23,388 nucleotides of DNA from a virus: the IMG/VR virus record IMGVR_UViG_3300045107_000169, positions 1-23,388 of that record; one strand, written 5' to 3'. Every line of letters starts with the position of its first letter. The stretch's first letter is position 1. The position numbers and the translations under genes are program-made. Positions 13,109 through 16,089 of this stretch are shown here, piece by piece. The notes beneath the pieces were generated by a model. The model was not told the DNA's origin. It saw nothing but the letters and a program-made list of their open reading frames with translations, and made no database searches.

Positions 13109-13513
13109 CTAGACAACGGTAACCGCGCCGGTGATCTGGATGGTGTACTGCACATCCACCACGTTGTTGACCGGATCGTGAATTTGCAAATCACTGATGT
13201 AGCCGGTGAAACTGTAGGTGTTCGTGCCACCGTTTGGACTGGCGATGAAGTAGAGCAGCGTATTGTTGAAGAATGCATTTTCCAACACGGCCTGCCCGTT
13301 GGTGTCTGATTTATCCCAGTAGCCCTTGACGACCGGCTTGCCGGATTTCAAGCCGGGGATAAACGACTCCCAGCCTGCCCCGCCCAGGCTTGTCGTGGTG
13401 TACATTGCCGCCGTGAAAGGCTGCGATACGTCATTGATACCGACCGGTTGATGCGTCGGACTGGGCGTCGTCGCGACCAAAAGCGACCCGCCATATCCTG
13501 CTACAGCTGCCAT
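13109..13513 (-). CDS. Tail tube protein, short paralogue
   Basis: A 134-residue beta-rich protein. MAAVAGYGGSLLVATTPS opens the protein, AGWESFIPGLKSGKPVVKGYW is in the middle, and the end reads TYSFTGYISDLQIHDP and VQYTIQITGAVTVV, the 'added strand plus ITG' ending usual for major tail-tube subunits. The strong AAGGAGG site before ATG 13513 predicts high expression, consistent with a major structural protein. The next gene encodes a longer homologue with the same opening, centre and ending. Which one builds the tube is not decidable; this short form is the likelier major subunit. Confidence 0.8.
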   Translation of the reverse strand: MAAVAGYGGSLLVATTPSPTHQPVGINDVSQPFTAAMYTTTSLGGAGWESFIPGLKSGKPVVKGYWDKSDTNGQAVLENAFFNNTLLYFIASPNGGTNTYSFTGYISDLQIHDPVNNVVDVQYTIQITGAVTVV

Positions 13514-13525
13514 AGAAGCGCCTCC

Positions 13526-13960
13526 TTATCCCTGTGTGTCGAGTTTGTATCGATGGATGATAGCCTGTGTCAGGCCGTCCGGTTGCGGGACTTCCTGCTC
13601 GTTTTCAAACAAGGTCAAAATGTTCGTAAAGCCGCCTGACAGGCTAAACTGGTACCTGTGTGTCAGGCTGTATACCTGTTTTGCGATGGCGCGCGCTTGC
13701 GCGAAGCCGCCGGATTGCGTGTAAACCGAGACCTGCATAAAGAGGTCGGTCGCGTCGGTACCGAAGGCAAAGGCTGTGCCAAGCTGGCTGGTAATGGGCT
13801 GGACAACGACATAGGGAAACGGCGCGCCGGTCGGTACCGACATGGCGTCATAGATTGCGCCGGGCGGGTTGGCGGGATTGCCAAGCAACCCTTGCAAAGT
13901 CGAGTCGCCCATGTAGCGCGTTATGAACGCCGCTTCTGCCTCTGCTGTCGGTAAGCCCAT
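13526..13960 (-). CDS. Tail terminator (DUF3168-like tail completion) protein
   Basis: A 144-residue protein with the layout of tail-terminator/DUF3168 proteins: an N-terminal helix (EAEAAFITRYMGDSTLQGLL), AIYDAMSVPTGAPFPYVVVQP, then FGTDATDLFMQVSVYTQSG followed by a helix FAQARAIAKQVYSL and a C-terminal beta hairpin with IIHRYKL. Such proteins form a hexameric ring that stops tail-tube growth and joins tail to neck. The gene follows the Acb2-like gene after 7 bases and precedes the tube genes, as expected. Confidence 0.83.
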   Translation of the reverse strand: MGLPTAEAEAAFITRYMGDSTLQGLLGNPANPPGAIYDAMSVPTGAPFPYVVVQPITSQLGTAFAFGTDATDLFMQVSVYTQSGGFAQARAIAKQVYSLTHRYQFSLSGGFTNILTLFENEQEVPQPDGLTQAIIHRYKLDTQG

Positions 13961-13967
13961 TTATACC

Positions 13968-14216
13968 CTACTCGTTACGCGCTATGGCGGCGTTTGCCCA
14001 CATCACCGCCTGCTCTAAATTCGTCAGGGCAAGGGACTTTTCACGGCTGTCAGGACACATCAAATCAATCTTGTAAGCCAGCCACTTTGCCCAACTACGA
14101 AGATACTCATAGCGTTCTACCTGGCTTCCCTTTGGCGGGTGATAACTGAATCGCTTTTCAAGGTCTGGATTCACTTTTTCGCCTGACTCTGATTTCTCCA
14201 CCACTTCTTCTGGCAT
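13968..14216 (-). CDS. acb2: Acb2/Tad1-hairpin domain protein, putative immune-signal sponge
   Basis: An 82-residue helical protein. After a charged N-terminus it shows RFSYHPPKGSQVERYEYLR (about 22-40), a helix AKWLAYKID, then CPDSREKSLALTNLEQAV and MWANAAIARNE (54-82). From memory this is the pattern of the Acb2/Tad1 hairpin-domain family. Characterised members form oligomers that bind cyclic di- or trinucleotides (Acb2, T4 Vs.4) or gcADPR (Tad1) and so block CBASS or Thoeris defence. The gene has a strong AAGGAG site 6-7 bases before ATG 14216, overlaps nothing, and lies between the gp10-like and tail-terminator genes. It would therefore be made with late structural proteins. Family membership is fairly sure; the ligand and the defence blocked are inferred, since many homologues are untested. 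Confidence 0.75.
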   Translation of the reverse strand: MPEEVVEKSESGEKVNPDLEKRFSYHPPKGSQVERYEYLRSWAKWLAYKIDLMCPDSREKSLALTNLEQAVMWANAAIARNE

Positions 14217-14226
14217 GAATTTCTCC

Positions 14227-14571
14227 TTACACCGTTATCGCTTTCAGTTCAGTTACTAAGTTTTTGGAAGCGCGTTGGAACGCGGGAAACAGGAACGGGC
14301 GCGCCGCGACAAAGCTATGATGCCCCCGGCTCCAATGCCCTAGCTCGATAAATGGGCCGTAGAACACGTTCGTGCCTACTGTACAAGCCGCCAGTCCTGT
14401 TTTCTGGTACTGGATGGAGGCGCGCAAGCGGCCTGTGTCGACGGGACACGCTTGCTTTGCGTAGGCTTGCGTATCGATACCCGCACCCTGAATGGCGGCA
14501 TCGACTTTCGCGGTGAGCGCCGCGAGATCGGGCTTGCCAGAGAAATTGACGCTGATCGTGACGCTTGCCAT
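14227..14571 (-). CDS. HK97 gp10-like neck/tail-completion protein
   Basis: A 114-residue protein with the diagnostic pattern of the HK97 gp10 family: CPVDTGRLRASIQYQ, then TNVFYGPFIELG, and AARPFLFPAFQRA near the C-terminus. These proteins connect the neck to the tail or complete the tail top. The start codon directly follows the stop of the preceding gene (TAAATG). The gene stands exactly where the family usually does, between head-closure and tail-terminator genes, except that an Acb2-like gene intervenes before the terminator. Confidence 0.9.
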   Translation of the reverse strand: MASVTISVNFSGKPDLAALTAKVDAAIQGAGIDTQAYAKQACPVDTGRLRASIQYQKTGLAACTVGTNVFYGPFIELGHWSRGHHSFVAARPFLFPAFQRASKNLVTELKAITV

Positions 14572-14787
14572 TTAGCCAGCCGCTTTCTCGACAATTTCCG
14601 TTTTGCCGCTTTTGCTCAATTCCTCTTCCAGTTCCGAGCGTTTGCTGTAGACAAACACATTGTCCTTTTTGTCGATATGAATGGTTTTGCCAGAAGCAAG
14701 CTCCAATGCCGTCGTTTCGACAATTTCTGGCTTGCCAAACCCAAACGGCTGTTTTTCTTGCTTCACTACCAATTCTTTCAATTCCAT
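14572..14787 (-). CDS. Small protein of unknown function in the neck genes
   Basis: A 71-residue protein starting with MELKELVVKQEK. The ATG at 14787 shares a base with the preceding stop and has AGGTGG upstream; an in-frame TTG at 14820 is less likely. The sequence is rich in Lys and Glu, with a central beta-like segment (TIHIDKKDNVFVYS) and a charged C-terminal helix (SELEEELSKSGKTE). I do not recognise a family. Position between head-closure and gp10-like genes, and direct abutment with both, suggests a small neck or assembly factor. Nothing indicates an enzyme or membrane protein. Confidence 0.65.
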   Translation of the reverse strand: MELKELVVKQEKQPFGFGKPEIVETTALELASGKTIHIDKKDNVFVYSKRSELEEELSKSGKTEIVEKAAG

Positions 14788-15188
14788 CAGTTCACCACCT
14801 GCGCTTGATTTTCCTGGCAAAGCAGCCAGAGCGAGACATTGGCCTCTGCCGGGTTCTCGACTCCCAGAATTTGATAGATGTGATTGACGCCATGCGCGGG
14901 ATACAGGACGCGCATGGGCTTATTGTTCAGGTCGCCCGCGCCCACTGCCACGCTTTTTTGAAAGCGAATCTGAATAATCGTGGTTAGCTGCGGATAGAGC
15001 TGGCCGTACAGGAACTTGCGCCACAGCCCCTTGCCCTTTGCCGGATTGCTGATATTCGCCCAGCAGGTGTAGATCGTCGTCCAGTTGTCGATACGGTTGT
15101 TCTGGCTATCGAAACTGTACTGATTTTGCTGGATCTGAATTCTCCGGTTCAGATCGGATGAGTCAACCTGATCTTGCGCGCCGGGCAT
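14787..15188 (-). CDS. Head-closure (head-tail joining) protein
   Basis: A 133-residue protein of the SPP1 gp16/HK97 head-tail joining type. The N-terminus has DLNRRIQIQQNQYSFD and NRIDNWTTIYTCWANISN, the middle TTIIQIRFQKSVAVGAGD, then MRVLYPAHGVNHIYQILGVENP, which match the family's L..RI.I......D....W and I.Y....Y.I....... patterns. These small beta-barrel rings close the neck channel after packaging. The ATG at 15188 has AAGGAG upstream, and a GGCAGGGG octamer lies in the space between this site and the start. The stop shares its last base with the next ATG (TGATG). Confidence 0.85.
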   Translation of the reverse strand: MPGAQDQVDSSDLNRRIQIQQNQYSFDSQNNRIDNWTTIYTCWANISNPAKGKGLWRKFLYGQLYPQLTTIIQIRFQKSVAVGAGDLNNKPMRVLYPAHGVNHIYQILGVENPAEANVSLWLLCQENQAQVVN

Positions 15189-15203: not shown

Positions 15204-15431
15204 TTATGCTCTTTCAGGCCAGTGCCACGTACCTGGTTCTTTCGATTCGCTATAAGCAACATCCTGATGAAATTGCAAACCGAAATTCTTCAGGCCGTTC
15301 ACATTCAGCATGTTCGTGAACACAGCCAGATCAGCATTGACGCCACCTGTATGGCCGATCACAATAGCGGCTAAATGCCGATTGTTAAATGCCACATAAT
15401 GAGCAATGCGCCCTTCAGTCAGTCCTTCCAC
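15204..15431 (-). CDS. Conserved small phage protein with GTWHWPE motif
   Basis: A 75-residue protein that starts with GTG (AGAGGA lies 5 bases upstream). It has MEGLTEGRIAHYVAF at the N-terminus, HLAAIVIG and LAVFTNMLNVNGL in the middle and SKEPGTWHWPERA at the end. I know this pattern (EGRIVHYV ... AAIV ... LQVF ... GTWHWPE) from many phage and prophage genomes, often in or near head or replication genes, but without an established function. The compact beta-rich sequence and aromatic terminal motif suggest a small ligand-binding or assembly protein. There is no enzyme motif. It is clearly a real gene: conserved motif, good start, and it exactly fills the gap between connector and head-closure genes. 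Confidence 0.75.
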   Translation of the reverse strand: MEGLTEGRIAHYVAFNNRHLAAIVIGHTGGVNADLAVFTNMLNVNGLKNFGLQFHQDVAYSESKEPGTWHWPERA

Positions 15432-15444
15432 AAAATCCTCTTTT

Positions 15445-16089
15445 CTACAGCATCATCACGCGGTTTCCGGCCAGCTCCGCCTGTAAGCTGTCCGGTATCT
15501 CCGCTTCACGGTTGTCATACATGAATGAAATCAGCTTCAGCAGCTTGCGCCGGATGTCAAACGGCAACGTCGCATAGCCCGCCACGTAGGTCAGACGAAA
15601 GCGCGTGGCGGCCAGCACAGTGAAGATATTGACCTCGTTGGGATCGGCATAAGTATCTATCCGGTAGGTATCATTGCCGTTGCTATCAGGCGTTGCTAAA
15701 AACGTCCATTCGGGAACGTCCATACGCGTCAGCTGGTATTCCAGGCTGGTAAAAGTCTGGACAGGCCCCATCAGACATTGCAGGCGCAACAAAGCGTTAC
15801 CAAACAGCGGGATGTCTGGCCGCTCAGCAAGTCGCCACGTGTCGTATGGCACGTCTACGGGACCGGAAATGTCGCCTGATGCCACATGGTCAAATTCCCA
15901 GATTTCCTGAATGGTCTGCGTTGCCAGCGATTTGCGCAGCAGATTTTCCGCGTAGCGGCGCGCATCGCTGATGCACTGCGAGATCACGGTATCATCATCG
16001 CTGAAGTCGATACGCAGCCACGCTTTCGCGTCGGCAAGCGCAATCGGCTCCTGTACAGGCGGGACAATGACTTGATAGGAAATGGGCAA
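15445..16089 (-). CDS. Head-tail connector, gp6/phiE125 gp8-like
   Basis: A 214-residue adaptor protein. The N-terminal part carries the family pattern: PPVQEPIALADAKAWLRID, then DDDTVISQCISDARRYAENLLRKSLATQTIQE, a helical bundle that docks under the portal as a ring. The C-terminal half has IDTYADPNEVNIFTV and a RLTYVAGYATLPFDIRRKLL stretch typical of the longer phiE125 gp8-type members. It belongs to the neck, between portal and head-closure protein. The gene lies after the decoration-like gene with a gap of 21 bases and before a GTG-started small gene. Confident at the family level. Confidence 0.87.
   Translation of the reverse strand: MPISYQVIVPPVQEPIALADAKAWLRIDFSDDDTVISQCISDARRYAENLLRKSLATQTIQEIWEFDHVASGDISGPVDVPYDTWRLAERPDIPLFGNALLRLQCLMGPVQTFTSLEYQLTRMDVPEWTFLATPDSNGNDTYRIDTYADPNEVNIFTVLAATRFRLTYVAGYATLPFDIRRKLLKLISFMYDNREAEIPDSLQAELAGNRVMML

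Follow-up and report, generated by a model that had tools for sequence, protein, structure and literature searches.

A putative Acb2-type anti-CBASS sponge gene carried as cargo between the neck genes of an uncultivated phage

A small gene wedged between two neck genes of an uncultivated phage very probably encodes an Acb2-type cyclic-oligonucleotide sponge, an accessory cargo of the late operon that has its own ribosome-binding site and is directed against CBASS; we infer its hexameric state, ligand, timing and anti-CBASS effect. The gene is an 82-codon ORF on the minus strand (14216..13968) of a 23,388-bp viral metagenome fragment, hereafter the window, meaning the whole stretch of DNA that was analysed. 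Its product of 82 amino acids has the sequence MPEEVVEKSESGEKVNPDLEKRFSYHPPKGSQVERYEYLRSWAKWLAYKIDLMCPDSREKSLALTNLEQAVMWANAAIARNE, and both motif strings quoted in a preliminary description of this DNA are present in the translation. A search of the whole window returned this single family match. The Acb2 family is already known and the window protein is an added member, contributing a clear Acb2-type protein, by homology, from an uncultivated phage.

The preliminary description had proposed an HMM search against the Acb2/Tad1 hairpin family, and this search supports its assignment. PF24729 (Acb2/Tad1 hairpin) matches the protein over the full profile with an E-value of 3.8e-21 and 75.5 bits, against a curated cut-off of 27 bits. 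On the same profile, T4 Vs.4, a verified Acb2, scores 71.4 bits, likewise over the full profile, and the B3-like Acb2, whose DNA is identical in JBD67 and CF78a, scores 59.6 bits. Matching PF24729 over the whole profile is thus something that the window protein has in common with Acb2 (T4 Vs.4, PaP2/PaMx p26 and JBD67 gp34; 7uq2, 8h2j). The protein also matches phrog_1454 (4.6e-27), a subfamily whose conserved residues are F23, H26, P28, Q32, Y36, R40 and SREKS and which is only distantly related to T4 Vs.4 by pairwise comparison; phrog_1454 proteins of Paenibacillus, Mycobacterium and Gordonia phages share up to 70% core identity with the window protein. A profile of 41 relatives finds "Acb2 homolog 43" (9ptq) at 1.1e-6, in a match that spans almost the full length. 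By sequence profile this is the closest solved structure, and it has a lysine at the position of Arg40; it differs in having a threonine at the position of Tyr25, and its pairwise E-value against the window protein is 0.27. Judged from sequence, membership of the Acb2/Tad1-hairpin family is well supported.

AlphaFold2 modelling of the monomer on an alignment of relatives gave a mean pLDDT of 84.6, with values of about 95 in the hairpin. In the predicted layout, residues 1-16 are disordered, residues 17-23 form a helix, and residues 32-53 and 58-81 form the two helices of an antiparallel hairpin; the model contains zero beta strands. Acb2 has been described as a short helix and a pair of long helices running antiparallel (PMC10419184), so the predicted helix and long helical hairpin point to the Acb2 architecture, from which the window protein differs by its disordered N-terminal extension of 16 residues. 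In a structural comparison, the complex of T4 Vs.4 with cGAMP (7uq2) ranked second, with a Z score of 6.2 and an rmsd of 2.6 over 56 residues; helical hairpins often attain Z scores in this range, and we regard the modelled similarity as supportive backing for an Acb2 fold rather than more than that. Foldseek alone against the PDB gave no match at E below 0.001.

The position of T4 K23 (PaP2 K26) is, we assume, that of a ligand-pocket lysine in Acb2. In our alignment, T4 Y8 corresponds to Y25 of the window protein, K23 to R40 and T68 to T65, with Y25 and R40 in ungapped register with the T4 residues. That T4 Acb2 acts as a cyclic-nucleotide sponge is established; Y8A abolishes its binding and activity, T68M lowers binding, and F82 makes a stacking contact with the cyclic dinucleotide in the site (PMC12657218, PMC12657230). 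The preliminary description had held that a loss of pocket residues would count against a sponge. By alignment, the tyrosine and threonine of the T4 ligand site are instead kept, with arginine in place of lysine, and in a set of 97 relatives and the window protein, 98 sequences in all, the three columns hold Y in 88, R in 93 and T in 95. The window protein differs further from T4 Acb2 in its low identity (21% in the structural alignment) and in having Ala79 in place of F82; alanine is also found here in PaP2-type Acb2, so this phenylalanine is not a defining feature. A predicted cyclic-dinucleotide pocket, consisting of a tyrosine, a basic residue and a threonine, therefore appears to be retained. 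It is nevertheless conceivable, if unlikely, that a sponge of the same fold has been tuned to another signal, such as a cyclic nucleotide of the Panoptes or type III CRISPR kind: phrog_1454 is a distinct subfamily with conserved residues of its own, pairwise distant from T4 Vs.4, and Acb2 proteins vary in ligand range (PMC12043709). The core T4 pocket positions are retained, however, and we found no pointer to any particular other ligand.

The preliminary description had named both CBASS and Thoeris as systems that the sponge might block. One rival reading is a Tad1-like sponge, which would bind glycocyclic ADP-ribose (gcADPR) and thereby block Thoeris. The motif SRE..ALT..E.A.MW.N is indeed common to the window protein and CbTad1 (7uav, 8kbe), where it lies in the C-terminal hairpin (SRE...T..E.A.MW.N), and the model overlaps the Tad1 hairpin with a Z score of 5.1. 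In the gcADPR-binding Tad1 protomer, however, the hairpin is joined to an antiparallel beta-sheet domain at the N-terminus (PMC12043709). With 82 residues and a strandless model, the window protein lacks this domain; the Tad1 alignment is confined to the C-terminal hairpin, and the profile of 41 relatives covers only about 20 hairpin residues of Tad1. We see no basis for gcADPR binding and consider a Tad1-like activity very unlikely. Since the Tad1 N-terminal sheet domain is missing, the Thoeris half of the earlier claim is dropped, while the CBASS half is upheld by homology, fold and pocket residues. On these three grounds, homology, predicted fold and pocket residues, an anti-CBASS-type role is well supported.

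Pfam and PHROGs give the gene order Ad1, Hc1, gp10-like/Neck1, sponge, tail terminator and major tail protein (Table 1), and a terminase fragment, portal, protease, capsid and tape measure are also present within the window. The gp10-like and tail-terminator neighbours named in the preliminary description are confirmed by these matches, and so is its strong ribosome-binding site, an AAGGAG located 6 nt 5' of the sponge ATG that shares bases with the stop codon of the upstream gp10-like ORF. On the other side, the tail terminator starts 7 nt past the sponge stop codon. No sigma-70-like site was found near the sponge gene on the minus strand, and the total number of such sites was not above that in shuffled sequences. 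GC3 is 0.54 in the sponge gene versus 0.65-0.76 in adjoining structural genes. Two short ORFs that are interleaved with the neck genes also have low GC3 and are possibly further accessory cargo. The window capsid matches only distant phages from many hosts, at about 32% identity or less, and for this reason no host is assigned.

Table 1. Features of the sponge gene and the surrounding neck and tail region (window coordinates).
Feature	Coordinates	Strand	Basis
Acb2-type sponge gene (by homology), 82 aa	13968..14216	-	PF24729 75.5 bits; phrog_1454 4.6e-27; AlphaFold2 pLDDT 84.6
Shine-Dalgarno AAGGAG	14223..14228	-	sequence
HK97 gp10-like / Neck1, upstream neighbour	14227..14571	-	PF04883 2.3e-7; phrog_5 ("tail completion or Neck1") 7.4e-18
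Tail terminator (gp17-like), downstream neighbour	13526..13960	-	PF11367 3.1e-12; phrog_176 4.7e-7
Major tail (tube) protein	13109..13513	-	phrog_1407 2.6e-9
Head closure Hc1	14787..15188	-	PF05521 7.4e-11; phrog_25
Head-tail adaptor Ad1	15445..16089	-	PF05135 2.3e-11; phrog_442
Short ORF	14572..14820	-	GC3 0.49; no PHROG match; Pfam match below cut-off only
Short ORF, phrog_2293	15204..15431	-	GC3 0.45; PHROG match

PF24729 is absent from seven records related to the window by capsid or gp10. None of the capsid-sharing relatives (L058 and L063-L067) has a family member, and in the four whose neck region is readable (L058, L063, L066 and L067) the sponge gene is missing from every one; L058 and L063 have other short ORFs, without recognised function, in or beside the neck region. 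Relatives were also sought via the tail terminator, and none was found. The same-capsid relatives without the gene, the varying short ORFs of the neck and the low GC3 together suggest accessory cargo at a permissive junction.

We surveyed 98 sponge-bearing viral records, in 24 of which a Neck1 gene was found. Only in two of these 24 (L006 and L041) do sponge and Neck1 lie no more than 1 kb apart, and the idea of a conserved neck location, which the preliminary description had suggested checking, is rejected. L006 has the order tail terminator, sponge, putative major tail protein (both neighbours by position), while L041 has gp10-like, sponge, then scaffold and capsid (the latter two by position). 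In L164, the sponge lies just ahead of a small gene at the tail-chaperone position, followed by the tape measure. The sponge follows the portal in L045 and in the Gordonia phages ChisanaKitsune and UBSmoodge, and further sites are beside or before the terminase, after the lysin in the lysis region, and among replication genes. Acb2 genes that are verified, or close relatives of verified ones, are scattered in a similar way. T4 vs.4 adjoins regB and denV, and PaP2-type acb2 forms the end of a replication block. JBD67 acb2, in turn, lies between the major head protein and the head-tail adaptor, and the tail terminator comes next; this is the same type of position, between head and tail genes, as in the window. 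According to PMC13083879, which cites Huiting et al. 2023, JBD67 acb2 deletion mutants have been assayed for CBASS sensitivity. A late site is thereby established for a working Acb2, contradicting the earlier view that such a site is surprising in an inhibitor of host defence. The gene does lie within the neck block, but this location is neither conserved nor unexpected.

These positions also bear on the possibility that the sponge fold has been turned into a structural or virion-carried neck protein. The tight fit between two neck genes and the strong ribosome-binding site would be in keeping with such a role, as would the tail-gene settings of the L006 and L164 members. Relatives that share capsid and neck genes do without the sponge gene, however, homologues sit far from the neck as well, and in many phages they occur near replication genes, ahead of the terminase, by the portal or in the lysis region, and the predicted ligand-pocket residues are kept across the subfamily. 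We accordingly disfavour the virion or second structural role that the preliminary description had raised and regard it as highly improbable. More improbable still is a scenario in which the sponge is synthesised together with the neck proteins, travels inside the particle and is delivered to the next host, where it would disarm CBASS ahead of any phage gene expression. Given the survey and the JBD67 precedent, the late position is no evidence against an anti-CBASS sponge and does not hint at a second role either. More generally, the sponge turns up as a single gene at a wide variety of junctions in phage genomes, both early and late; this spread is informative, and the late position has a functional precedent in JBD67.

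For the anti-CBASS sponge that we favour, the following sequence of events can be envisaged. The sponge gene would be part of a late head-neck-tail transcript, co-transcription being suggested by the gene spacing, and its strong ribosome-binding site would serve for separate translation of the protein, which would be expected to assemble into a hexamer made up of helical hairpins. This hexamer would bind the cyclic di- and trinucleotides made by CBASS as a stoichiometric trap, and with the signal trapped the host effector would be kept off until lysis. The gene itself would have come in as cargo, at a permissive site between two neck genes, and would not belong to the neck. Late synthesis would coincide with a signal that increases as head proteins build up. 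In an acb2-deleted phage, escape from CBASS has been linked to the major capsid gene (PMC10419184), and late, abundant synthesis would suit both this link and a stoichiometric trap. Acb2 has also been reported to be active during lysogen induction, not lysogen maintenance (PMC12043709). A late-acting role would fit. By contrast, SPO1 Acb4 shows activity early (PMC11722364), so timing varies between sponges.

Several observations concern gene neighbourhoods and annotation. In ChisanaKitsune (L069, 4989-5204) and UBSmoodge (L070, 4983-5201), the sponge gene lies directly between the portal and an RNA ligase, after which comes an ADP-ribosyltransferase gene; the three could be a small counter-defence cluster amid head genes. 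An RNA-ligase-like ORF is also located directly 3' of the sponge in viral contig L042. Linkage to RNA ligase as a general rule is rejected, with PF09414 above cut-off in only 1 of 50 records. The phrog_1454 subfamily to which the window protein belongs is widespread in Paenibacillus and actinobacteria phages, at other genome positions than in the window, and mostly filed as "hypothetical" or "phosphomannomutase". In Paenibacillus larvae phages (e.g., NC_055030, 35536-35751), the homologue is labelled "putative phosphomannomutase", and in Beetreviruses the Acb2 gene is labelled "NAD/FAD-utilizing enzyme"; both labels look like misannotated PF24729. Similarly, L183 6346-6801 (JBD67 gp36) is labelled "portal protein", and its CF78a equivalent matches the tail terminator family PF23840 at 3e-50. 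In a Planctomycetota MAG (L097, 7992-8168), the sponge gene seems to shift frame, and the continuous ORF corresponds to the N-terminal half of the family only, possibly reflecting a frameshifted copy or a sequencing error. Finally, one genome of Paenibacillus bouchesdurhonensis contains two similar phage-like regions (L094 and L095), both of which encode a sponge amid nearly identical neighbouring genes.
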